Source: a virus
IMG/VR virus record: IMGVR_UViG_3300042507_007934
Location: 1-26,787 of that record
Direction: 5' to 3' (one strand)
Length of the DNA: 26,787 nt
The notes under the pieces were generated by a model. That model did not search any database. It had not been told where the DNA came from and saw nothing but the letters and a program-made list of their open reading frames with translations. Shown piece after piece: positions 13,251 to 26,365 of this stretch (positions within the stretch are counted from its first letter, which is position 1; every line of letters begins with the position of its first letter). The position numbers and the translations under genes are program-made.

Positions 13251-14981
13251 GTGGCTGAAAAAAGAATAGCTAATAAAAGAGTTGATACTGATGGTGGTAT
13301 CTGGGTAGATAGACGTTTAGCTTTTAATAAATTCAATCTCCCTATAATCGAGTCTGGGTGGCAAAATTATTTCCTTACCATAGACAACGATGGAATTACC
13401 TCTCTAGCCCAGGGAATGTCAGGAACTAGTGGAGCAGGTACAGCAGGAACATCAGGCCTTTCTAATGGCACTTCAGGCACCTCAGGTACTTCAGGCGCAA
13501 GAGGAACTTCAGGCACATCAGGCACATCCGGTGTGGGTTCCGCAGGCACCTCAGGAGCTACTGGTACTTCAGGAGCCCCAGGCACTTCAGGCACTTCGGG
13601 AGCCCCAGGTACTTCAGGAGTTCCAGGTAGTTCAGGTACTTCAGGAGCTCAAGGCACTTCAGGCACATCAGGTGCTCCTGGCAATCCTGGTACCTCAGGC
13701 ACTTCAGCTCCAGGTATAACTTCAGGTACTTCTGGTGTGGGTTCACCTGGAAGTTCAGGCACCAACGGTACTTCAGGAGCCAATGGTACTTCAGGCATAA
13801 ACGGATCTTCGGGCACATCAGGCTTTAGAGGCACTTCAGGCACCTCAGGTATTAATGGTACTTCGGCCACTAGCGGCACTTCAGGTACTAATGGTACAAC
13901 AGGTACTTCCGGAACCAGTGGTACATCTGGTATTAATGGTACCGCCGGTACTTCAGGAGCTCAAGGAACAGGGGGAACAAGCGGAACCTCAGGGGCTCAA
14001 GGTGATAAAGGAGCTCAAGGAACAGGAGGAACAAGCGGAACAAGCGGAACTTCAGGGGGGGCTGGTGCTGCCGGTACTTCTGGTACTTCTTCTACAAGTG
14101 GTTCTACCTGTGGAAATGCTGTAGCTTTTCAATCAGCCGCAATTCTTCAAAGTACAGCTCAAAACGCCCAATTAAGATTTAGAAGACTTTATACCCTCCC
14201 AGTATTAGCTAACCAAGCAGGAGGAATTTCTACTACTCCTTCATCTGAGATGTATAATTTTAATAATCCTTCTTATACTGGAGGCACTACAGAAAGCCCA
14301 GTTACGGTTCTTAATGCCACTATCCCCTCTAATTTCGCTAATGCTATAGCTAATTCTTTAACATCCCCAGTAACTTATGAAGGAGATCTTTTAGACCAAG
14401 ATCCCCTATATGCAGGTGAAGTAGCTAATATGCTTCCCATGGATACGGTTATGTATACTACTTATGCCCAAAACCCAGACCCATCAACAGCACCTGCTTA
14501 CAGAAGACCTTATTTAGCTACTAATTTTTCTTTTATAGGAAATAATGCAGCTCAAGACCTTTCAGATGCTTCATTTATAGTTTGTATGGTGGTTTTTGGT
14601 TTAACTCCTAAACCTGCTCATTTAGAAACATTCTGGGGTCCCGATATATATTATAATCCTTATAATAATATTCTTAGTACTAATAATCCTCAAATAATTG
14701 AATACAATGTTAGATTTATAGGACCTATAATCCCTGACAATCCATTTTTAAGTGAAACTTTTACTAGAGCTACTAATAATTGGAGGTCTACAGGTGTAGC
14801 AGATGTTGCCGGGTATAACCATTATGGGATAGGTTGGACTATAATTAATCCTGATACTCCTGAAGATGATGAAGGTTATATTGTGTTAAATCCTGAAAGT
14901 TTAGGTAATATCAATACTATGATTAGAGGAAGGTGGGGTCATGTATTTAAGATTTGTCAACAACCTTTACCTCAAGTTTAA
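13251..14981 (+). CDS. Collagen-like tail fibre protein with Gly-X-X repeats
   Basis: A 576-aa protein in three parts. Residues 1-56 form a short head ([18 protein letters not shown]..). Residues of about 57-286 are an almost unbroken Gly-X-X array, mostly GTS with APG, AQG, INGT and VGS variants, expected to form a collagen-like triple helix. The C-terminal 290 residues are aromatic-rich and globular ([47 protein letters not shown]), a plausible trimerisation or receptor-binding tip. The start chosen is GTG: GTG-GCT-GAA here parallels ATG-GCT-GAG in the preceding gene, and there is no better ATG upstream. It lies 6 bp after the giant tail gene, as expected for a fibre assembled onto it. Confidence 0.8.
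13418..14103 (+). repeat. Degenerate 9-bp DNA repeat encoding the Gly-Thr-Ser array
   Basis: Tandem degenerate copies of a 9-bp unit (GGCACTTCA, GGTACTTCA, GGAACATCA and similar) encode the collagen-like stretch. The region is more GC-rich than its surroundings and keeps several other frames open on both strands; these are by-products of the repeat. Third positions vary (GGC/GGT/GGA, ACT/ACA/ACC, TCA/TCC/TCT), so the array is old or under selection against perfect repeats. It could still expand or contract by slippage. Confidence 0.85.
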
Positions 14982-16748: not shown

Positions 16749-17717
16749 ATGGGAGCTTGGAAACAATTTTTAACCTCAGACATAATTGTTACCCCATTTC
16801 AGGTTAACAAAGGTTTTAGCTTACCTTATACCCAATGGGCAACCGGATCAGATGGGCAAATAGTAGGTATCGATAGATTTTTTGGACTTAGCGGTAGTTG
16901 GTTTAGCAATAAATCAACTACTGGTACTCTTACTGTCGAATACCAAACTTTAATTTACGATTCTGTAAAACAACTCTACTACTCTAATTTTTTGAGTAGT
17001 AGTACAGGAGACAATGCTGTACCTCCTACTCTTATCCCCGGTTCTACCCCTTCAGGTTCAGGTAATGTTTTAATAGGGTCTGGTTCAGGTCCTCTATACG
17101 ACAATTTCTTACAAAGCACTTTAACTCCACAACGATACTGGAATCCTATAGAAATTTTAGTTTTATCTGTACCTTCAAAAGTTTATGGAGAATATATTGC
17201 TCCTAATACTTTTAGATGGGCTTGTGGCACACCGGGTGTTGAAGGAACTATTGTAGATGATGGGGAAGGTAACCTATTTTCAGGTAGTACTAATGTGGGG
17301 AATATTATTTACCCTCATGGTCTAGCAATCTTAACTTATACTTCTTCTATTTTTGGAGAAGACCTTGCGTTTTGGTTAGGAGAAACAAACATGACTTGTT
17401 CTTTCTCTTCATCCATGACCATATATGAAACACAATATAAATGCACAATCCGAGAAGATGAGTTTAATCTTACACTAAACCCATCAGCTCAAGCCAGTGG
17501 TTCTATAATCACTGTTAATTCAGGATCAGGATCATTTTACCAACCAGGTAATGGAAAACTATTAGATACTGTAACCGGATCTTATTTCTCACCTTATGTA
17601 ACCACTGTTGGTTTATATAATGAAGCACAAGATCTATTGGCTGTAGCCAAATTATCACAACCATTACCTACTTCAAACACAACTGATCTGACAATCCTAG
17701 TAAACCTAGATAGATAA
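16749..17717 (+). CDS. Probable virion/fibre protein, paralog of the preceding gene at its C-terminus
   Basis: A 322-aa beta-rich protein, low in Lys and Arg, with many Ser, Gly, Tyr and Trp residues. The N-terminus reads WKQFLTSDIIVTPFQVNKGF and the middle has Gly/Ser-rich loops (STPSGSGNVLIGSGSG). The C-terminal 80 residues repeat the module of the preceding gene (YVTTVGLYNEAQDLLAVAKL). An ATG at 16745 is in another frame, and the in-frame ATG at 16749 is used here. The stop overlaps the start of the GIY-YIG-like gene as TAATG. Its location in the virion is unknown; the paired arrangement suggests a heteromeric assembly with its neighbour. Confidence 0.7.
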   Translation: MGAWKQFLTSDIIVTPFQVNKGFSLPYTQWATGSDGQIVGIDRFFGLSGSWFSNKSTTGTLTVEYQTLIYDSVKQLYYSNFLSSSTGDNAVPPTLIPGSTPSGSGNVLIGSGSGPLYDNFLQSTLTPQRYWNPIEILVLSVPSKVYGEYIAPNTFRWACGTPGVEGTIVDDGEGNLFSGSTNVGNIIYPHGLAILTYTSSIFGEDLAFWLGETNMTCSFSSSMTIYETQYKCTIREDEFNLTLNPSAQASGSIITVNSGSGSFYQPGNGKLLDTVTGSYFSPYVTTVGLYNEAQDLLAVAKLSQPLPTSNTTDLTILVNLDR

Positions 17718-18160
17718 TGTGGAAATATAATAATGAAGAAATGACTTGCCTTGAAGATTTCCCTCAAGGCACTTATGGTTTTGTATATAGAGTTATACAT
17801 AAACCTAGTGAAATTGCTTATATAGGAAAAAAAGTTTTATTTCATAATATAAAAAAGAAACTTACCAAAAAAGAATTAAATCTGATAGAAGGTCAGGGAC
17901 GACGTCCTGTATATAGATTAACCCAAAAAGAATCAGACTGGAAGACTTATTATGGTTCTGCTAAACCTATTTTAGAACTTATTAGTAATGGAAGATCAGA
18001 CGAATTTGAACGTACTATTATTAAATTAGCTCCTGATAAAAAATTGTTAACTTATTACGAAACTAAATATTTGTTTGTGTATGAAGTTTTAGAAAAGCCT
18101 GATGATTTTTATAATGATAATATTTTAGGTAAATTTTATAGTAAAGATTTTTTTCAATAA
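17717..18160 (+). CDS. GIY-YIG-like nuclease domain protein
   Basis: A 147-aa protein. The first 45 residues contain YGFVYRVIHKPSEIAYIGKK, which fits the paired GIY (here GFVY) and YIG strands of the GIY-YIG nuclease fold. It is followed by DWKTYYGSAKPILELI, as in phage members of this group. The Glu in LLTYYETKYLF is a good candidate for the metal-binding glutamate of the family. The end (DDFYNDNILGKFYSKDF) matches the layout of small phage GIY-YIG-type proteins that lack a separate DNA-binding domain. It could be a stand-alone nuclease, a homing-type enzyme or a DNA-processing protein. It sits at the end of the structural block, coupled by TAATG. Activity is inferred. Confidence 0.7.
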   Translation: MWKYNNEEMTCLEDFPQGTYGFVYRVIHKPSEIAYIGKKVLFHNIKKKLTKKELNLIEGQGRRPVYRLTQKESDWKTYYGSAKPILELISNGRSDEFERTIIKLAPDKKLLTYYETKYLFVYEVLEKPDDFYNDNILGKFYSKDFFQ

Positions 18161-18190: not shown

Positions 18191-18817
18191 ATGAAACGTA
18201 CGGAACTCCTCAACCAGATCAAGAATCATATTTTAAAAGAAGTTCAAGTTAAAACTTCTAAAGTATCCAAAGACAACCCTAATATCTTTGTTGTAGCTAA
18301 AGTAACCTACAAACCCGAGGATTACACTAAATATGTTCGATTCGCACAAGGTACATACACAGGAAATTCTCCAGAACAATACCTAAAAAACGCTATCCAG
18401 TTAAGACAAAGAGAAAAAAAAGAATTTGATCCTAATACTTTAAGTTACTATTTCAATCAAGATGGTAACATGGAAAATTATGAGGTTGAATTTATTGAAA
18501 CTGGTTTGTCTGCAAACGAAGCTACAAGAATGGCTAATCAAAAAAACCAAGAACTTGGTATTAAAGATAAGAGATTAGGTGGTTTAGCAGGTGTTTCTAA
18601 TCCTATTGAAGTAGATAAAAAAGATATTATAGGACCTATGAAAGATGGTTTCTACTATATTGATAAAATGGCTTTACCTAAATATAAAACCTTAAAAGTA
18701 GATAAAAAAATTGAAACTGTTATAAATGGTTTCAATAAACTTACTAAGAAGCCTAAATCTTGGACTTATCTTAAAATTACTTCTCAAATCAAGCCTACTA
18801 CATCTTTAACAAAATGA
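18191..18817 (+). CDS. Unrecognised protein with a targeting-like head peptide (208 aa)
   Basis: The first 17 residues (MKRTELLNQIKNHILKE) form a basic amphipathic helix ending in L-K-E, followed by VQVKTS. This has the form of a T4 capsid-targeting head cleaved after L/I-x-E. The body is Lys-rich and mixed alpha/beta (PNIFVVAKVTYKPEDYTKYV, YEVEFIETGLSANEATRMAN, GFYYIDKMALPKYKTLKV), with no catalytic motif that I recognise. The segment around residues 95-150 reads like a small GIY-YIG-neighbour or helix-turn-helix-like region, but too weakly to claim. It overlaps the next gene as ATGA and opens a run of genes with similar heads. Packaging in the head is an inference. Confidence 0.65.
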   Translation: MKRTELLNQIKNHILKEVQVKTSKVSKDNPNIFVVAKVTYKPEDYTKYVRFAQGTYTGNSPEQYLKNAIQLRQREKKEFDPNTLSYYFNQDGNMENYEVEFIETGLSANEATRMANQKNQELGIKDKRLGGLAGVSNPIEVDKKDIIGPMKDGFYYIDKMALPKYKTLKVDKKIETVINGFNKLTKKPKSWTYLKITSQIKPTTSLTK

Positions 18818-19743
18818 TTAAGTTAAGTTCTCTTTTAAAAGAAATCAAAGTTATATCACCATATGATAGACTAGTTATACAGTTATCAGCTACGGATGAA
18901 TATGGTGAAGCACGAGATAAAACTACACTTATTTTTCCAAAACATGGAGACCAATTACATCCAGAAGATAAAGCATATCTTGAATCAGAAGAAGTAGGTA
19001 TTCCTGAGGAAAGTGGATTTTTTTTCTATTTAGATCTTGCTTTAATGTATTTTGAAAATCAGATTCAACAATTAGGAAATAACCCAGATAGATCTCAAGT
19101 AGAAGATGTAATAATAGAATTAGTAAAAGATTTATCTAAATATATTGAGGAAAATGAAGCTTATTCTATAGAGGATACAGGTCCAAGAGATGATATTGCA
19201 AATAATATTCTAGAGAAATTTAAAGAACTTTTCCCAACCGTTAACCCCCACTTTGTAGGTCTGGGGTGGTTCACTTTTTCTAATGGTTTAGTAGAATCTT
19301 TAGTAGAGGGCGATCCTTCATTTCTTATAGACTTTACCTTTGGGGGTAATGTAAATGAAATTAGAGTAGTAGCTCCTAATCTATCCATAGCTGATTACTT
19401 AAATTCTCCTCAAAATACAAAAGATGTTAGAGATTGGGCGTGGGAATATTCTAGAAATAATTTGGACCGTACTGAACATCAAGAAATCTATAACGACTAC
19501 ATACAGCGTATAAAACCTGGAAGTTTTCGACTTGTTGACCCTGATAGGGATCCAATGGGTGCTACAGACTATAATTTTGATAAAGTTTTTAAGGACCCAC
19601 TTAATGTAGCCACATTCAATTTCTCCACAGAACAAGTATGGTACTTTGCTTTTTCCTCTAACTTTTTAGAGGGAGGTTTTAAATTCTGGGATTTAGAACC
19701 ATTTTTTGCTGGAGATAAACTTATTGAAGCCGTAACTTTCTAA
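18814..19743 (+). CDS. Unrecognised two-unit protein with repeated E-I-K/R-V junctions (309 aa)
   Basis: The head MIKLSSLLKEIKVISP is almost the same as that of the following gene, with L-K-E at 8-10. A second junction, NVNEIRVVAP, lies at about 179-188 and divides the protein into two units. Unit 1 (about 11-178) is acidic and helical (LALMYFENQIQQLGN, VEDVIIELVKDLSKYIEENE) and ends in a beta region. Unit 2 (about 183-309) is Trp/Tyr/Phe-rich (VRDWAWEYSRNNLDR, VWYFAFSSNFLEGGFKFWD). No enzyme motif is recognised. It overlaps the previous gene as ATGA and stops 4 bp before a paralog in head and layout. The junction repeat is seen directly; cleavage there is a hypothesis. Confidence 0.68.
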   Translation: MIKLSSLLKEIKVISPYDRLVIQLSATDEYGEARDKTTLIFPKHGDQLHPEDKAYLESEEVGIPEESGFFFYLDLALMYFENQIQQLGNNPDRSQVEDVIIELVKDLSKYIEENEAYSIEDTGPRDDIANNILEKFKELFPTVNPHFVGLGWFTFSNGLVESLVEGDPSFLIDFTFGGNVNEIRVVAPNLSIADYLNSPQNTKDVRDWAWEYSRNNLDRTEHQEIYNDYIQRIKPGSFRLVDPDRDPMGATDYNFDKVFKDPLNVATFNFSTEQVWYFAFSSNFLEGGFKFWDLEPFFAGDKLIEAVTF

Positions 19744-19747
19744 AGAT

Positions 19748-20869
19748 ATGATTAAATTAGTTAACCTTTTAAAAGAAATTAAAGTTGTTAGTCCAAAAAC
19801 TGAATTGATTTTTTGGCCTGCCCTCTTAAAAGCTTTAAGACGAAATTTTGGAAAAGATTGGAAAATATATAATAATCTTACCACATCTTCCCCCTCAGTT
19901 AAAATCTATAATGCTATCTATAATGCTACTAATAATTTAGAAGATATAAAACAATTTATTGATTCTATTGATGGTTGGAGATCATCTCCCATATCTAGAG
20001 GCCAATTACTAATTTACCCTACAACTATGGCCAGAGGAAAGGTTAAACAGGATATATTGACATCCTATAGACATCCCGAAAGAGAAATCTCTCCTTTAGT
20101 TTTAGATTTTTTTACAAAATTACGCCAACAAGGAATTGCTGATCTTAATACACCCCAGGAGTATTTTTCTTTTATAAAACCCCACTTCCCAGCTGGGGTT
20201 AATGAAATTAAAGTTTTAGATCCTAAAGATATAAATTTTTATGGTAATATACCTGCTTTGGGTATTTTATTTAATTATTCTGATGAGGAACCAGAAATTC
20301 CTTATGAATGGGACGATAAGGAGATACGAAAACTAGTTAAAGGTTTAGGATATAAAGATTGGAAAGATATAGCAGGTGAAGTCACTCACTATTTCCCCCC
20401 AGATGATGAGGATTTTTTAATAACAATTAGAGATCAAGAAAATCGTCCTAATATAGAAGTTAAAGACCTTACTATAGGAATGATTATTAAGAATATTTTA
20501 CAAGACTTCCCTTACGAATCAGATGAACCCATTGAAACTGATAGTTATGTGCCTAAAGTTAAGGATGTTGAAGTTGATAATAGTTTTAAAACAAAACAGA
20601 ATCCAAAATTAAAAGCTCTTATTGAAAAATATAAAGATGAATTAATTGATAAATTTGAATTAGATAGATCTGCTGTAGAAGTAATAGATTACACATATTA
20701 CCCTGAAGTAGGGATTGGATCACCTTATAGCGGATTTGTTAAATCTGTAAAGTTTATCACACCTAAAGATTGGGAAGAAAATAAAAAATATTTTGCTCAA
20801 AATCAAAACTATAGAGAAGCCAAAAATATAAAAATAGGGGGTGTTGATTTAAAATATTATATAAATTAA
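19748..20869 (+). CDS. Unrecognised two-unit protein with repeated E-I-K-V junctions (373 aa)
   Basis: It begins MIKLVNLLKEIKVVSP, nearly the same head as the preceding gene, and carries an internal AGVNEIKVLDP at about 149-159. The first unit (about 11-150) is basic and aromatic (LLKALRRNFGKDWKIYNNL, KQFIDSIDGWRSSPISRG). The second (about 154-373) is acidic and then Lys-rich (EEPEIPYEWDDKEIRKLV, YFPPDDEDFLITIRD, NPKLKALIEKYKDELIDKFE). The differing charge of the two parts suggests that two former genes have fused. No catalytic motif is visible. It is separated by only 4 bp from the upstream paralog and followed by the first 18-bp hairpin repeat. Function is unknown; head packaging is inferred from the head peptide. 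Confidence 0.68.
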   Translation: MIKLVNLLKEIKVVSPKTELIFWPALLKALRRNFGKDWKIYNNLTTSSPSVKIYNAIYNATNNLEDIKQFIDSIDGWRSSPISRGQLLIYPTTMARGKVKQDILTSYRHPEREISPLVLDFFTKLRQQGIADLNTPQEYFSFIKPHFPAGVNEIKVLDPKDINFYGNIPALGILFNYSDEEPEIPYEWDDKEIRKLVKGLGYKDWKDIAGEVTHYFPPDDEDFLITIRDQENRPNIEVKDLTIGMIIKNILQDFPYESDEPIETDSYVPKVKDVEVDNSFKTKQNPKLKALIEKYKDELIDKFELDRSAVEVIDYTYYPEVGIGSPYSGFVKSVKFITPKDWEENKKYFAQNQNYREAKNIKIGGVDLKYYIN

Positions 20870-20877
20870 TAAAAAAT

Positions 20878-20895
20878 ATCTTAAAAGTTAAGCTT
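20878..20895 (+). repeat. 18-bp hairpin direct repeat, left copy
   Basis: ATCTTAAAAGTTAAGCTT occurs here and again, identical, at 22076-22093. It contains a perfect small hairpin (CTTAA, loop AAG, TTAAG). The two copies bracket the three-gene block with shared heads. The left copy is not followed by the CCAAGCTT arm and T-tract that turn the right copy into a terminator. Confidence 0.8.
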
Positions 20896-20910
20896 AGAAA
20901 TAAAATTAAA

Positions 20911-20985
20911 ATGAAAAAACAACTACTTTCCGAAGAATTTACTCGCATGCAAAAGCTTGCAGGCATTGTAAATGAAATTAAAGTA
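20911..20985 (+). repeat. 75-bp coding head repeat, copy A
   Basis: These 75 bp encode the shared 25-residue head. They differ from copy C (21706-21780) at about five positions, by eye, while the DNA after the repeat shows no similarity. The border of similarity falls exactly at the end of NEIKV. Confidence 0.85.
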
Positions 20986-21237
20986 GAACCTCCTATGAAA
21001 TTAAAATTTAAAGAAGGTGTTTACGGTTTTATCTTTGATTCTCAACATGATGAGATTGTAAAAATATTCACATCACCCCCAAGTGAAGCTGAATTAAAAC
21101 GTCTTTCAGGCATGTTAGATGAATATGATATGATATTTACAGACCTTAAAACAGTTAATGAATTGTTTGAAATTGAAAGTAAAGAACAATTATTAGCCGA
21201 TAAAGGATTGAGTCAAGTATTAGATTGGTGGCAATAA
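20911..21237 (+). CDS. Small protein, shared-head family member A (108 aa)
   Basis: The first 25 residues (MKKQLLSEEFTRMQKLAGIV then NEIKV) are almost identical to those of the next two genes; the body then diverges completely. The head is an amphipathic helix ending in V-N-E, close to the L/I-x-E form of prohead protease sites. The body (about 26-108) begins EPPMKLKFKEGVYGFIFD and continues as a small alpha/beta domain ending DKGLSQVLDWWQ. I do not recognise it. It follows the left 18-bp repeat and lacks a Shine-Dalgarno; the start is preceded by AAAATTAAA, as in the next gene. Shared head plus unique body suggests a common delivery address with different cargo. Confidence 0.68.
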   Translation: MKKQLLSEEFTRMQKLAGIVNEIKVEPPMKLKFKEGVYGFIFDSQHDEIVKIFTSPPSEAELKRLSGMLDEYDMIFTDLKTVNELFEIESKEQLLADKGLSQVLDWWQ

Positions 21238-21243
21238 ATTAAA

Positions 21244-21318
21244 ATGAAAAAACAACCACTCTCCGAAGAATTTCAACGCATGCAAAAGCTTGCAGGTATT
21301 ATATCTGAAATTAAAGTA
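21244..21318 (+). repeat. 75-bp coding head repeat, copy B
   Basis: This is the most diverged of the three copies, with changes clustered near the middle (CAACGC for ACTCGC) and before the junction (ATATCT for GTAAAT). The 5' flank (AAATTAAA before ATG) matches that of copy A, so the repeat unit includes the initiation region. Confidence 0.82.
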
Positions 21319-21702
21319 ACATCTGGTTCTTTCCCTCTCCCTAAAGGGTGGAAAGAACTACCTGTAGATAATGACCCAGATCTAGAAGAAGATATTGAAA
21401 TTGAAAGTTATGGTGCCCCTATGGAAGGGTGGGATGAAGATCATCCTGATATTGTAAGCATCTACTCAACCCCAGAAATTGATGCCGAGACCGGAGAACC
21501 AATAGAAAAAAAGCAATACTATGTAGAAGTCTATATATCTTATGGTGATTGGGCAGAAGATATGGAAAAATATGATACATTTATAGGAGCTAAAACAAAA
21601 GCTATAGAAATAATGAATGATATATCTAGTGATTGGCCTGATGATGAAGATTGGGATACCGATTTTGATAATGACGATGATGATAACAATAATGAAATTT
21701 AA
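21244..21702 (+). CDS. Very acidic small protein, shared-head family member B (152 aa)
   Basis: It has the same 25-residue head as its two neighbours, here reading FQRMQKLAGIISEIKV with I-S-E before the junction, an exact match to I-x-E. The body is highly acidic throughout (DNDPDLEEDIEIESYG, GWDEDHPDIVSIYS) and ends in an Asp/Asn-only tail (DWDTDFDNDDDDNNN). The middle contains a small beta strand and helix region (KKQYYVEVYISYGDWAEDME). The charge pattern recalls DNA-mimic proteins, but acidic phage proteins are common and the likeness is weak evidence. It lies 6 bp after member A and 3 bp before member C. Function is unknown; delivery with the phage DNA is inferred from the head. Confidence 0.66.
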   Translation: MKKQPLSEEFQRMQKLAGIISEIKVTSGSFPLPKGWKELPVDNDPDLEEDIEIESYGAPMEGWDEDHPDIVSIYSTPEIDAETGEPIEKKQYYVEVYISYGDWAEDMEKYDTFIGAKTKAIEIMNDISSDWPDDEDWDTDFDNDDDDNNNEI

Positions 21703-21705
21703 AAA

Positions 21706-21780
21706 ATGAAAAAACAACTACTCTCAGAAGAATTTACCCGCATGCAAAAGATGGCAGGCATTGTAAATGAAATTAAAGTA
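21706..21780 (+). repeat. 75-bp coding head repeat, copy C
   Basis: Nearly identical to copy A: about five differences in 75 bp, three of them silent and two in one Leu-to-Met codon. The match stops at the end of NEIKV, as in the other copies. Confidence 0.85.
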
Positions 21781-22059
21781 AAACCTTCATTACCAAAAAA
21801 CGTAGAAGCATTCAAACAATTTATAATCTCAGAATTAGGTGAGGTTTTAGAAGATTACATTGAAAGTGGTGAAAACTTATTTGGTGAGCCCTTTGATGCC
21901 CCTCAATATGAAGAATTAAAAAATTCTATTAATAGCTTAACAACATTAGAAGATATAGAAAATGTCGTTGAGGATTTTTTATATGAAAATGTCTATGAAA
22001 AAGATTACGAAGTAAAAGATTTTTTTCAATATATCTATAGAAATTTTATTGAAGGATAA
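21706..22059 (+). CDS. Small acidic protein, shared-head family member C (117 aa)
   Basis: The head is MKKQLLSEEFTRMQKMAGIV then NEIKV, differing from member A at one residue (M for L). The body starts KPSLPKNVEAFKQFIISELG and is a helical acidic domain (EVLEDYIESGENLFGEP, LEDIENVVEDFLYENVYE) ending in aromatics (VKDFFQYIYRNFIEG). No family is recognised. It begins 3 bp after member B and is followed by the right 18-bp repeat and terminator. Together the three genes look like a cassette row in which one head has been joined to different bodies. Confidence 0.66.
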   Translation: MKKQLLSEEFTRMQKMAGIVNEIKVKPSLPKNVEAFKQFIISELGEVLEDYIESGENLFGEPFDAPQYEELKNSINSLTTLEDIENVVEDFLYENVYEKDYEVKDFFQYIYRNFIEG

Positions 22060-22126: not shown

Positions 22127-23059
22127 ATGGTTAATCAACTACTTGTAGCGCTTGTCAATTCTGTTTTAGGGCAGGGGAAATCAACTGCAAGAGGTAACCA
22201 AGCCCACACCTGCCCATTTTGCCATCACCATAAACCCAAATTAGAAATAAATCTTAGTGAAGGAAATGGAGATAAAAACCCGTGGCATTGTTGGGTGTGT
22301 GGGAAAAAAGGAGTAAAGCTAATCACTCTATTTAAACAAATTGGAGCTCCTGAAGATAAACTAAACGAATTACGTGCTTTAGTTAAATCTTCATATAAAG
22401 ACGAGCAAACCCAAACCCACGAAGAAGCTAAACTACCTGAGGAATTTAAACCTATTTCTCAAATCACCGAAAATGATATTGTAGGGAGACATGCCATTGC
22501 TTACCTTAAAAAACGAGGTATTACAAAGGCAGATATTCTAAAATACAATATAGGATATTGTGAAAGTGGCAACTTTAAAAACATGATCATAATCCCTTCT
22601 TACAATATTTCAGGTAAACTTAACTATTTCACAGCCCGGAATTTTGATTCTACATCCCCAGTAAAATATAAAAATCCACCTCTTAGCCGAAATATAATTC
22701 CTTTTGAGCTTTATATAAATTGGTCTTCACCGCTTATATTGTGCGAAGGACCATTTGATGCCATAGCCATCAAACGTAATGCTATCCCGCTTCTAGGAAA
22801 AAATATACAAGCTAATTTGATGAAGCGTATTGTAACTTCTCAAGTTGAAAAAATTTATATTGCTTTAGATAAGGATGCCCAAAAAGATGCTTTAAAATTT
22901 ACTGAATTACTCTTGGCTGAGGGTAAAGAAGTTTATATCGTTGACCTGGATGAAAAAGATCCGAGTGAAATGGGATTTGAAAACTTTACTAAACTTATAC
23001 ACGAAACATATCCCACAAATACATTTGACTTAATGTCAAGAAAAATAGCACTATTATGA
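22127..23059 (+). CDS. DNA primase, gp61-like, with zinc ribbon and Toprim domain
   Basis: A 310-aa primase that would make RNA primers for phage DNA replication (T4 gp61 is 342 aa). The N-terminal zinc ribbon has C29-P-F-C32, then WHCWVCGKKG with C55 and C58. The Toprim core is visible as LILCEGPFDAIAIK (Glu207, Asp211) and IYIALDKDAQKDALK (Asp248, Asp250), the acidic residues expected to bind metal. Between them, LKKRGITKADILKYNIGYC and NFKNMIIIPSYNISGKLNYF fit the DnaG/gp61-type catalytic core. It lies directly after a terminator, has no ATATTTATA motif, and overlaps the following nuclease gene by 4 bp (ATGA), as expected for a separate replication transcript. No helicase domain is present. 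Confidence 0.88.
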   Translation: MVNQLLVALVNSVLGQGKSTARGNQAHTCPFCHHHKPKLEINLSEGNGDKNPWHCWVCGKKGVKLITLFKQIGAPEDKLNELRALVKSSYKDEQTQTHEEAKLPEEFKPISQITENDIVGRHAIAYLKKRGITKADILKYNIGYCESGNFKNMIIIPSYNISGKLNYFTARNFDSTSPVKYKNPPLSRNIIPFELYINWSSPLILCEGPFDAIAIKRNAIPLLGKNIQANLMKRIVTSQVEKIYIALDKDAQKDALKFTELLLAEGKEVYIVDLDEKDPSEMGFENFTKLIHETYPTNTFDLMSRKIALL

Positions 23060-23867: not shown

Positions 23868-24671
23868 ATGATCAGTCTTATTCAATTACTAGAAGAAGTC
23901 TCTTCCAGACCCAAAGCTATTATATTAGCAGGTTCTCCGGGTGCTGGAAAGACTTCTTTTGTTGAAAATTTTATACAGCCTTTTAAATTAGAGGTTTTAA
24001 ATATAGACGATTATTATAAACAAAACTTACAACAGGCTGGAGTTTCTTTAAATCTTAAACAAGCCACAGCTGAGGAAAGAAGCAAATCATCTTCAGCGAT
24101 GCATAAATCCATTAAAGAATACCAAGCAGCTTTAAACGAAAAAGTTAAACAAAAAGCTAACATCCTCATAGACTCAACCTCAGGCTCTTTTAAAAAAACA
24201 GCTGAGCTAAAAAATTATTTAGTAAAAAATGGGTATGATGTTTTTATGGTATATATGTTTGCTTCACTAAAAAAGTCTTTGAGAAGAAATGACACTAGAT
24301 TTGATAGATCCAATGGAAAAGATAGAAGTCTTCCCCCGTCAATTGTTTTACAAACATGGGTTAATGTTAGTAAAAATTACGACAATTATAGAACCTTTTT
24401 TGGCGATAATTTTATCTCGATTGTAAACGACGATCTTCCTAAAACTTTATCTTCCCTAAAAGACATAAAGCAAATCTATTTAGAGCCATATAAGATTACA
24501 GACTCTAAACCTAAAACTCCTCAGGAGCAGGCTAAATCTGATTCGCTTAATAAAGAAAATGATTTGTTTATCACGAATTTTTGGAAATCAGATAAAACCC
24601 AAGACATTATAGATAATTCAATTTCAAAAAAAGAAGCACAAGCCAAAATTAAGTCATTTCTTCAATCATGA
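23868..24671 (+). CDS. Zeta-toxin-like P-loop kinase with a targeting-like head
   Basis: A 267-aa protein. After a short head (MISLIQLLEEVSSRPK, with L-E-E at 8-10) comes AIILAGSPGAGKTSFVENF, a clear Walker A (Gly22 to Ser30), and then VLNIDDYYK, as in zeta-toxin and polynucleotide-kinase-like P-loop enzymes. ANILIDSTSG and YDVFMVYMFASLKKSLRRND fit the core strands, and an Arg-rich segment (RRNDTRFDRSNGKDR) fits a phosphate-binding lid. The C-terminal 60 residues are polar and helical. Zeta proteins phosphorylate UDP-N-acetylglucosamine, but the substrate here is not evident, and no epsilon-type antitoxin is adjacent. It has an ATATTTATA motif upstream and an ATGA overlap downstream. Confidence 0.78.
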   Translation: MISLIQLLEEVSSRPKAIILAGSPGAGKTSFVENFIQPFKLEVLNIDDYYKQNLQQAGVSLNLKQATAEERSKSSSAMHKSIKEYQAALNEKVKQKANILIDSTSGSFKKTAELKNYLVKNGYDVFMVYMFASLKKSLRRNDTRFDRSNGKDRSLPPSIVLQTWVNVSKNYDNYRTFFGDNFISIVNDDLPKTLSSLKDIKQIYLEPYKITDSKPKTPQEQAKSDSLNKENDLFITNFWKSDKTQDIIDNSISKKEAQAKIKSFLQS

Positions 24672-26365
24672 GTACAGATAAAATACCTGGAGGTCTAGCA
24701 AAAGGAATGTCTTTATCAGACATTGCTAAACACCATAAACTTCCCTTAAAATCCCTTCAGTCAAAACTTGAACAAGGTATTAAAACTGAAATGGAACACA
24801 CTACAGATAAAGCTATAGCTCGCGAAATTGCTATGGATCATATTTACGAAGACCCAAATTATTATTCTAAATTAAAACAAATAGAGACTGAGGGTACTTG
24901 TGGGTATACAATGGATGCTGAAACCGGAGAAGAATTAGGAACACCAGGTGGTTTGGAAGAAGGTGATAAAAGAGGCTTAGACATGTATGCTTTAGAACTT
25001 CAAAAAGGTCTAGAAGAAGCTATCTTAAATCATTTACTTAACGAAAATGAGAATATAACAACCAGTACTTACCCATTTGAAGTTACAGATAGGACTTATG
25101 ATGATGAAGATGATTCACTAATCTCAGTTTCATATGAATTAACAACCCCCTACAATTCCTATAAAGTTGAGTTTTATTCTGGAGAATATAGTCCTGAATC
25201 AAAAAAATTTGATCTATCATTCGGTGTAAATATCGGATATTTAAATAAAATTGATACCTTTCAAATGACAGGTGAAGGGAATGCTAAAAAAATATTTAAT
25301 ACTATCCTTAATATTGTAGAAGATTTTATAAATAAAGAAGATGTTAAGAAAATAGTAGTAGATGGAACTGATGAAAAACGTAAAAGAATTTATAAAGCTA
25401 TTTTTTCATCCACACCTCCAAACATATCTGATAAGATTGAACTTAAAGAAGCTAACCTAAAAGGCACAATGACATTCCGTAATTGGACTGATAGTATTGA
25501 AGAAGATGGTCAAAAAACATCCGATAAAAATATGGATGATTATAAAAAACAAAACAACCCAAGTGGTAAAGTAAAAGACCCGTTTGGTTTAAATCAATTT
25601 GCTCGCGAGTTAGTTATGGGTTTAGAAGAAGCAGATCCTAAAACCGGTACAGGTAAAAAACCTGAAGGGTCATCTCGTAGATTATACACAGACGAAGATC
25701 CAAGCGATACTGTTAAAGTAAAATTTTCTACTAAACAAGACATTATAGATACTTTATCTAAAGCTTCTTTCAAATCAAAATCACACGCTCGCCAATCTCA
25801 AATTATTAACCTGATTCATCAGCGAGTAAGAGCAGCCTACGAAAGAGCTAAAGATCCTGATGTTAAAAGACGTTTAAAAACAGCTTTAGATTATGCTGAA
25901 CAAAGAAAAGAAGCATCTAAAGAAAAAACACAACGTTTAAAAAAAATAAAAGAAGCATCTGACCCACAAGCTGGAACAGCTATACCTTATGGATCAGGTT
26001 ATAAAGAACTCATACCTGAAATAACAAAATTTATGTTAGATAAAGGGATGAATTTAAGACCTCTCCCTAAAGTAAAATTTATAGAAGACGATAAAGAAAA
26101 TGCTGAAGATATTTTAGGCAGAACAGCATTTTACAATCCTGAAGAAAAATCAGTTACATTATATACTTTAGGTCGTCACCCTAAAGATATTTTACGTTCA
26201 TTTTGTCACGAAATGATACACCACTTACAAAATGTAGAAGGTAGATTACCTAAATTTTATACTACTAACACTCAAGAAGATTCCGCTTTAAATGATATTG
26301 AGGAAGAAGCCCACAGATTAGGTAGTATGACAATGAGAGAATTTGAAGATACAATAAAAAAATAG
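24668..26365 (+). CDS. Multidomain protein: DUF5661-like N-terminus and HExxH metallopeptidase C-terminus
   Basis: A 565-aa mosaic. Residues of about 5-80 match the DUF5661 pattern (GIKTEMEHTTDKAIAREIAM then DHIYEDPNYYSKL). About 125-260 is an alpha/beta domain (YKVEFYSGEYSPESKKFDLS, MTGEGNAKKIFNTILNI, GTDEKRKRIYKAIF). About 355-430 is a Lys/Arg-rich helical segment (SHARQSQIINLIHQRVRAAY). The C-terminus has H514-E-M-I-H518 followed by Glu545-547, a zincin-type HExxH with a plausible third ligand. Linkers contain L/I-x-E-A at 115-118, 259-262, 319-322 and 427-430, close to the domain borders. Two of them share a longer form, (Y/F)A.EL..GLEEA. It is coupled to the kinase by ATGA. Peptidase activity is inferred from the motif only. 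Confidence 0.75.
   Translation: MSTDKIPGGLAKGMSLSDIAKHHKLPLKSLQSKLEQGIKTEMEHTTDKAIAREIAMDHIYEDPNYYSKLKQIETEGTCGYTMDAETGEELGTPGGLEEGDKRGLDMYALELQKGLEEAILNHLLNENENITTSTYPFEVTDRTYDDEDDSLISVSYELTTPYNSYKVEFYSGEYSPESKKFDLSFGVNIGYLNKIDTFQMTGEGNAKKIFNTILNIVEDFINKEDVKKIVVDGTDEKRKRIYKAIFSSTPPNISDKIELKEANLKGTMTFRNWTDSIEEDGQKTSDKNMDDYKKQNNPSGKVKDPFGLNQFARELVMGLEEADPKTGTGKKPEGSSRRLYTDEDPSDTVKVKFSTKQDIIDTLSKASFKSKSHARQSQIINLIHQRVRAAYERAKDPDVKRRLKTALDYAEQRKEASKEKTQRLKKIKEASDPQAGTAIPYGSGYKELIPEITKFMLDKGMNLRPLPKVKFIEDDKENAEDILGRTAFYNPEEKSVTLYTLGRHPKDILRSFCHEMIHHLQNVEGRLPKFYTTNTQEDSALNDIEEEAHRLGSMTMREFEDTIKK

Follow-up and report, generated by a model that had tools for sequence, protein, structure and literature searches.

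Predicted head-cargo genes of a T4-like phage include fused forms that the prohead protease may split

Results

Five consecutive genes of a T4-like phage are likely to encode proteins that are packed into the head, two of them as fusions whose products would be split by the prohead protease, in a variant of the internal proteins of T4. The window, meaning the whole stretch of DNA that was analyzed, is a single virus record, 26,787 bases long, in which baseplate, tail, primase, and exonuclease genes are found. The baseplate wedge protein that it encodes shares 48.7% identity with that of Flavobacterium phage immuto, which is of the T4-like myophage type, and the window primase shares 87% identity with the primase of a further related phage (G026). 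Protease, capsid, and scaffold genes were not seen in this 26.8-kb window, which is a fragment; an S77 search gave no match, and neither did its controls. In the tail region, the protein encoded at 13251-14981 carries a long collagen-like GTSGTSG repeat.

An insertion site for headed cargo genes

The five genes lie in an island next to the primase gene.

18191..22059, plus strand: accessory cargo island, flanked by a conserved gene (17717-18160) and by the primase gene at 22127

In addition to the five motif genes, the island holds one more. These six genes in 3,967 nt form the largest insert among the records that contain both anchors. The gap between the anchors was 51 nt or less, i.e., the island was empty, in 63 of 81 such records, the window counted, and genes were inserted in the other 18. 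By reading of the sequences, 14 of these 18 carried at least one inserted gene with a head-like start. The site between the conserved gene and the primase gene is a hypervariable insertion site for headed cargo genes.

A junction motif that recurs inside two proteins

A sequence-only reading of this DNA had proposed that the motif E-I-(K/R)-V closes the N-terminal head in five consecutive genes and that proline usually follows within three residues. Both statements agree with our count over the 27 coding sequences of the window (8,735 amino acids). Seven copies of EI[KR]V were found, none of them outside the five named genes, each of which has one copy at the end of its head. Proline follows within three residues at six of the seven sites, the exception being the 152-aa protein. 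The six-residue core [ILV]xEI[KR]V occupies residues 20 to 25 in the 108-, 152-, and 117-aa proteins and residues 8 to 13 in the 309- and 373-aa proteins, so that all five N-terminal peptides end in [L/I/V]-x-E. The second, inner copy claimed for the two longer proteins is also there, at residues 180 to 185 of the 309-aa protein (VNEIRV) and residues 151 to 156 of the 373-aa protein (VNEIKV). In 200,000 shuffles, an inner [ILV]xEI[KR]V arose in 0.15% and 0.44% of the 309- and 373-aa bodies, respectively, and VNEI[KR]V arose in 0.004% and 0.005%. Both open reading frames are intact. The features are as follows.

18814..18843, plus strand: short head MIKLSSLLKE of the 309-aa protein; predicted cut after E10; the short type also precedes the core in L157 and L158
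18844..19359, plus strand: unit 1 of the 309-aa protein, residues 11 to 182 (IKVISP ... GGNVNE), delimited by junction positions; no homologs
19351..19368, plus strand: inner junction of the 309-aa protein, residues 180 to 185, VNE/IRV followed by VAP; predicted cut after E182
19360..19740, plus strand: unit 2 of the 309-aa protein, residues 183 to 309, delimited by junction position; no homologs
19748..19777, plus strand: short head of the 373-aa protein, MIKLVNLLKE
19778..20206, plus strand: unit 1 of the 373-aa protein, residues 11 to 153, delimited by junction position; no homologs
20192..20215, plus strand: inner AG-VNE/IKV of the 373-aa protein, residues 149 to 156; homologous to the head end of a 124-aa gene product; predicted cut after E153
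20207..20866, plus strand: unit 2 of the 373-aa protein, residues 154 to 373; the first ~100 residues match the L278 gene and the C-terminal domain of L169
20911..20976, plus strand: long head, capsid-targeting type, of the 108-aa protein, MKKQLLSEEFTRMQKLAGIVNE
21244..21309, plus strand: long head of the 152-aa protein, whose body matches 133-aa proteins of L116 and L012 that have their own head
21706..21771, plus strand: long head of the 117-aa protein, whose body recurs in L203 under a different head

Some further observations concern the proteins with such heads. The products of window positions 20911-21237 and of immuto gp178 (L121:41013-41453) look by eye like small protein-kinase-like folds with a glycine-loop-like stretch, which is an impression. 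In immuto, gp178 directly precedes the primase region, and its N-terminal short head, MISIYNILKE, leads into VISP. The zeta-toxin/kinase-like protein encoded at window positions 23868-24671 (Zeta_toxin, E 4.8e-16) begins with MISLIQLLEE, a short head of the cargo type that is conserved in many of its relatives.

Fusion in the 373-aa protein and a probable one in the 309-aa protein

The sequence-only reading had taken both longer genes for fusions of head-plus-body units. For the 373-aa protein, this holds, since a separate headed gene matches its second half from the junction onward. Neither the 309- nor the 373-aa sequence, used singly as the query against viral contigs and phage records, returned a match, and the relative was found when an alignment of unit 2 of the 373-aa protein with L169 (two rows) served as the query. 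L278 carries a separate 124-aa gene with an intact head, MKLIKEAKRFQELAGINEIKV, whose product matches residues 149 to 254 of the 373-aa protein with 37.8% identity over 111 columns (E 4.5e-15). The alignment begins at AGINEIKV in L278 and at AGVNEIKV in the 373-aa protein. A second fusion of the same domain was found in a 191-aa protein of L169, which is 71.6% identical to L278 and has a worn head remnant, EARKWYDL-DEVKI, ahead of the domain. We considered DLDEVKI of L169 as the exact counterpart of the window junction and rejected it, as the direct alignment of the window with L169 starts elsewhere; L278 was taken instead because it aligns across the junction and L169 does not. By these alignments, unit 2 of the 373-aa protein is a fused-in headed cargo gene, its head trimmed to AG and its predicted cut site kept. 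The protein thus comprises two units rather than one cargo protein per gene. Unit 1 had no relative in the sequence searches made.

The 309-aa protein is probably a fusion of two units as well, a view that draws on the motif and on analogy. Neither half had a relative in the viral contigs and phage records searched. The likeness of the inner motifs to the AGI(V)NEIKV head end is true homology in the 373-aa protein and resemblance in the 309-aa protein. Pfam and PHROGs assigned no function to either protein, and no Pfam family scored above the cutoff. Modeled with AlphaFold from one sequence, the 309-aa protein reached a mean pLDDT of 40.5, and the model was unusable for placing the junction.

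Heads as candidate capsid-targeting peptides

A scan of viral contigs with the long head yielded at least 120 stretches. Among the matches listed, there were 113 distinct long-head contexts, 58 of them N-terminal, 53 C-terminal, and 2 internal. Within 8 residues after the long head, [ILV]xE was present in 56 of the 58 distinct N-terminal copies listed, compared with 12.6% of random 8-residue windows. It also stood just upstream of the tag in 52 of the 53 C-terminal copies among the matches listed. The C-terminal copies examined were mostly located at the ends of long acidic proteins of the gp22-scaffold type; two further kinds of protein, in L003/L070 and in L024, end in the tag. In immuto, EIISEVSEQVSRWQKLAGIIK is the end of the protein whose gene lies between those for the prohead protease and the capsid protein, and a small protein starts with MKKQILSEQFRRMQKLAGIITE. 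A tag of the R-x-Q-K-L-A-G-I type ends the gp22-like scaffold, after [ILV]xE, in L156:21627-22868 (immuto gp204), L287, L290, L142, L288, and L289. Immuto gp204 is annotated as a "DNA polymerase phi-like protein."

A gp21-like protease, a tag-ended scaffold, and a capsid protein with [ILV]xE near residue 60 co-occur in immuto and five related phages, including G026. In these five related phages, the capsid site reads LVTE or LVVE. A homolog of the gp21-type protease was detected in 6 of 10 related records, counting immuto, from which the query came, and G026. In T4, the site of cutting by the prohead protease gp21 lies behind L/I-x-E, and the residues of the IPIII CTS that matter for targeting differ from those that matter for processing, as described in excerpts of PMC9026906. 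Given this rule, and since the tag stands next to [ILV]xE in cargo and scaffold, the best interpretation of the heads is that they are capsid-targeting peptides bearing a prohead-protease site. We infer that the scaffold, too, has at its C-terminus a tag used for targeting or binding.

Heads of other phages match those of the window at 77 to 95% over 22 residues, and no match between the bodies of the seven window units was better than E 0.008 (best pair, C-D, over 20 residues). The body of the 117-aa protein has a 68% match in L203 under another head, with a repeat region after it. Heads and bodies have therefore been shuffled. By eye, the repeats at the C-terminus of this L203 protein (L203:2655-3428) are leucine-rich-like (TSLPNNLQVGGNLDLSYTKI).

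Fused and separate forms in other phages

Separate-gene homologs, which the sequence-only reading had suggested looking for, exist not only for unit 2 of the 373-aa protein but also for modules in other phages. A module of 163 to 166 aa is encoded by a separate headed gene in L170 (184 aa) and forms the C-terminal part of a 287-aa protein in L138 (65% identity) and of a 521-aa protein in L157 (47%); the matches start at, or just ahead of, the junction. The N-terminal part of the 521-aa protein is in turn a separate 337-aa protein in L158 (67%). A module of ~650 aa stands alone in L161 and also in L157, whose copy ends with a C-terminal tag; fused versions occur in L178 (792 aa), L143 (772 aa), and L193 (1,271 aa). 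The L143 protein contains an inner head, EEFRRLQQLAGIITE, and the L193 protein contains an inner start-like MIRLLPLLKE as well as an inner RWQKLAGITEIHVKEP. A 769-aa chain of L193 has four junctions; L191 has the first part of this chain as a separate protein of 402 aa (50%). Multijunction polyproteins are 622, 792, 769, and 1,271 aa long. The 622-aa protein of L178 (L178:139-2007) has two stretches that are missing from its relatives in L157, L158, and L141, and both start at a core site and end near another -NE. In our reading, they are cargo-like units that entered, in frame, a late protein whose relatives are uninterrupted.

Besides the window, six groups bear fusions (G001, G002/G006, G007/G013/G021, G010, G018/G020, and G024), with up to about six units per chain; contigs sharing the same open reading frames were counted once, by reading of contig listings. 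The 24 modules that follow a junction have a median length of 105.5 aa, similar to that of 36 separate headed proteins (116 aa). Assembly error is an unlikely source of the fusions, given that fused forms recur in several contigs (L157/L164/L172 and L077/L124/L125), although each of these two sets looks like one phage type. A model of the L157 521-aa protein from six rows had a mean pLDDT of 59.8. Residues 334 to 366, which span the inner head and junction, fell below 50, a confident domain starts at residue 367, and the preceding segment scored 58 to 83. The low confidence would fit a linker at the junction, without proving one. In this related fusion, the junction was not seen to be buried within a single domain, which is what the sequence-only reading had named as refuting evidence. 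In a fold search with this model, there was no PDB match at an E value of 0.001 or lower and one match to an uncharacterized viral protein (E 3e-5).

These forms bear on the question of whether the inner sites are still used. The genes may have fused and the inner site may be a leftover that is no longer cut, so that the fused protein acts as a whole. No direct sign of cutting was seen, and the CTS part ahead of the 373-aa junction is trimmed to AG, as it would be in a decaying relic. However, [ILV]xE followed by [IV]K survives where heads are worn (SLTEIKI in L138 and DLDEVKI in L169), and several junctions persist in the 769-, 1,271-, and 622-aa chains, a contrast that is biased because these chains were found largely via the core. 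We consider such a fossil junction unlikely, though it is the strongest of the alternatives to cutting by the prohead protease.

The core after the predicted cut site

A subset of phages has I-(K/T)-(V/I)-x-x-P conserved after the site; 20 and 5 stretches were obtained in two narrower scans. A DNA pattern for E-I-x-(V/I)-x-x-P had 47 matches in 19 whole records, on a single strand in each record, of which at least 19 are built in since the records were picked for holding a match; the reversed pattern had 1. The core follows at least three types of head, namely, the long head, the short MIKLxxILNE (L157 and L158), and others, such as that of L130. It was present in 60 distinct open reading frames and lay beyond residue 40 in 16 of them. 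It should be noted that 5 of 26 internal contexts were in proteins seemingly unrelated to cargo, e.g., a primase, so the motif by itself is no proof and single matches are weak. Likewise, related fusions were located by core search, and fusions without a junction are therefore undercounted.

At the capsid and scaffold sites compared in the same phages, IK(V/I)xxP is absent, so that the protease alone fails to explain its conservation in cargo. The idea that I-K-V-x-x-P is a protease requirement was dropped on the same grounds. The motif may be retained for docking, as the context in which folded cargo is processed, or as a signal that acts after the cut. In its strong form, docking would mean that E-I-K-V-x-x-P is a strand binding the capsid, the scaffold, or another head protein, one per unit, and that cutting is incidental. 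Its restriction to cargo and its position behind several different head types would suit such a strand. The residues that precede it nevertheless obey the L/I-x-E rule of T4 gp21 (PMC9026906, in excerpts), which docking does not need, and we regard docking without a role for cutting as improbable, somewhat more so than the fossil junction.

A different enzyme could also be responsible. In excerpts of PMC5512222, Iyer et al. propose that MPTase domains release the units of polyvalent proteins, and a metallopeptidase borne by the cargo might do the processing here. The first unit of the L193 769-aa chain has a weak match to a metallo-protease (phrog_87, E 0.0017), and a 565-aa protein of the window matches that unit (E 1e-7). 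Against this, the site fits the prohead-protease rule of the capsid and scaffold of the same phages, and Pfam detected neither a peptidase nor polyvalent-associated domains (MPTase, ParB, LPD, etc.) in the 309- and 373-aa proteins. We give a cargo-borne enzyme a slightly lower chance again than docking. DUF5661 and DUF6934 are present in the 565-aa protein (window positions 24668-26365), as is a HEMIHHLQ stretch that resembles the metallopeptidase portions of immuto gp183 and the L193 769-aa polyprotein.

Finally, the inner motifs could be coincidental short matches, such as occur now and then in unrelated proteins of other contigs (the 5 of 26 contexts above), but the shuffle rates make this very improbable, and homology across the junction already refutes it for the 373-aa protein.

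Discussion

We favor processing by the prohead protease. The five window genes would encode proteins that a T4-like, Immutovirus-type phage packs within its head. An N-terminal peptide, either long (...FxRMQKLAGI-xE) or short (MIKLxxLLKE), would carry each protein into the forming head, where the prohead protease would then cleave after [ILV]-x-E to give a mature protein with I-K-(V/I)-x-x-P at its start. The 309- and 373-aa genes would each have arisen from two joined cargo genes, the second unit losing all or part of its targeting part and retaining its cut site. Because one head would suffice per chain, the targeting part of the second unit would be dispensable, and with the inner cut site retained, a single chain could be packed and then split in two. 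The units would be freed inside the head and ejected later. Cutting at the inner junctions is consistent with the site rule, with the retention of the core where the targeting part has eroded, and with the predicted linker position in a related fusion.

More tentatively, the prohead protease may be a true polyprotein processor in this T4-like branch, a wider proposal that we regard as possible but doubtful on present evidence. Cargo chains of up to about six units would travel on one tag and be cut inside the head, some units having been inserted in frame between cut sites, as in the L178 622-aa protein. The freed proteins would start with I-K-(V/I)-N-x-P, and the tag at the end of the scaffold would recruit the cargo. 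The I-K-(V/I)-N-x-P start could possibly be a second signal for packing or ejection.

How cargo proteins are selected for the T4 core was called mysterious in a 2023 review (PMC9958956, in excerpts). For a large group of phages, a tag common to the scaffold C-terminus and the cargo N-terminus would offer a direct answer that can be tested. The fused and separate forms also make visible a route to polyproteins, from a separate gene through a fusion with an intact inner head to a worn head with a kept cut site. In addition, they provide a sequence rule for spotting unknown proteins that phages may inject into bacteria. We found no description of cargo chains separated by a head protease, or of such fusions, in those parts of the open literature that were searched.

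A close known parallel is T4 itself. According to excerpts of PMC9026906 and PMC9958956, IPI to IPIII and Alt have a short N-terminal propeptide (CTS) that is cut by gp21. The propeptide ends in [L/I]-x-E and stands on otherwise unrelated small proteins, as the heads do here, and the related phages of the window resemble T4 in their gp21-like protease, gp22-like scaffold, and gp23-like capsid protein. In contrast to the T4 internal proteins, at least two cargo units are present per chain here, with internal sites; IK(V/I)xxP is conserved past the site; and the tag also occurs at the scaffold C-terminus. Another parallel is provided by the polyvalent proteins that Iyer et al. (2017, PMC5512222, in excerpts) described in phages and conjugative elements, in which several unrelated domains share one chain. 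These proteins are presumed to accompany the DNA on delivery and to be divided into units, and the authors draw an analogy to polyproteins. The proposed splitter there is an embedded metallopeptidase, whereas here, a short, repeated junction of the prohead-protease type lies between the units. The heads of the giant phages phiKZ and SPN3US contain many internal proteins that bear propeptides; a gp21-type protease cuts these behind x-x-E, in some cases at several positions within a single propeptide (excerpts of PMC5694885 and PMC10052503). All identified cuts reported in the excerpts of PMC10052503 gave N-terminal propeptides, save that of the protease itself. The extra sites in those phages thus chop the propeptide, whereas the inner sites described here part modules that are separate genes elsewhere.
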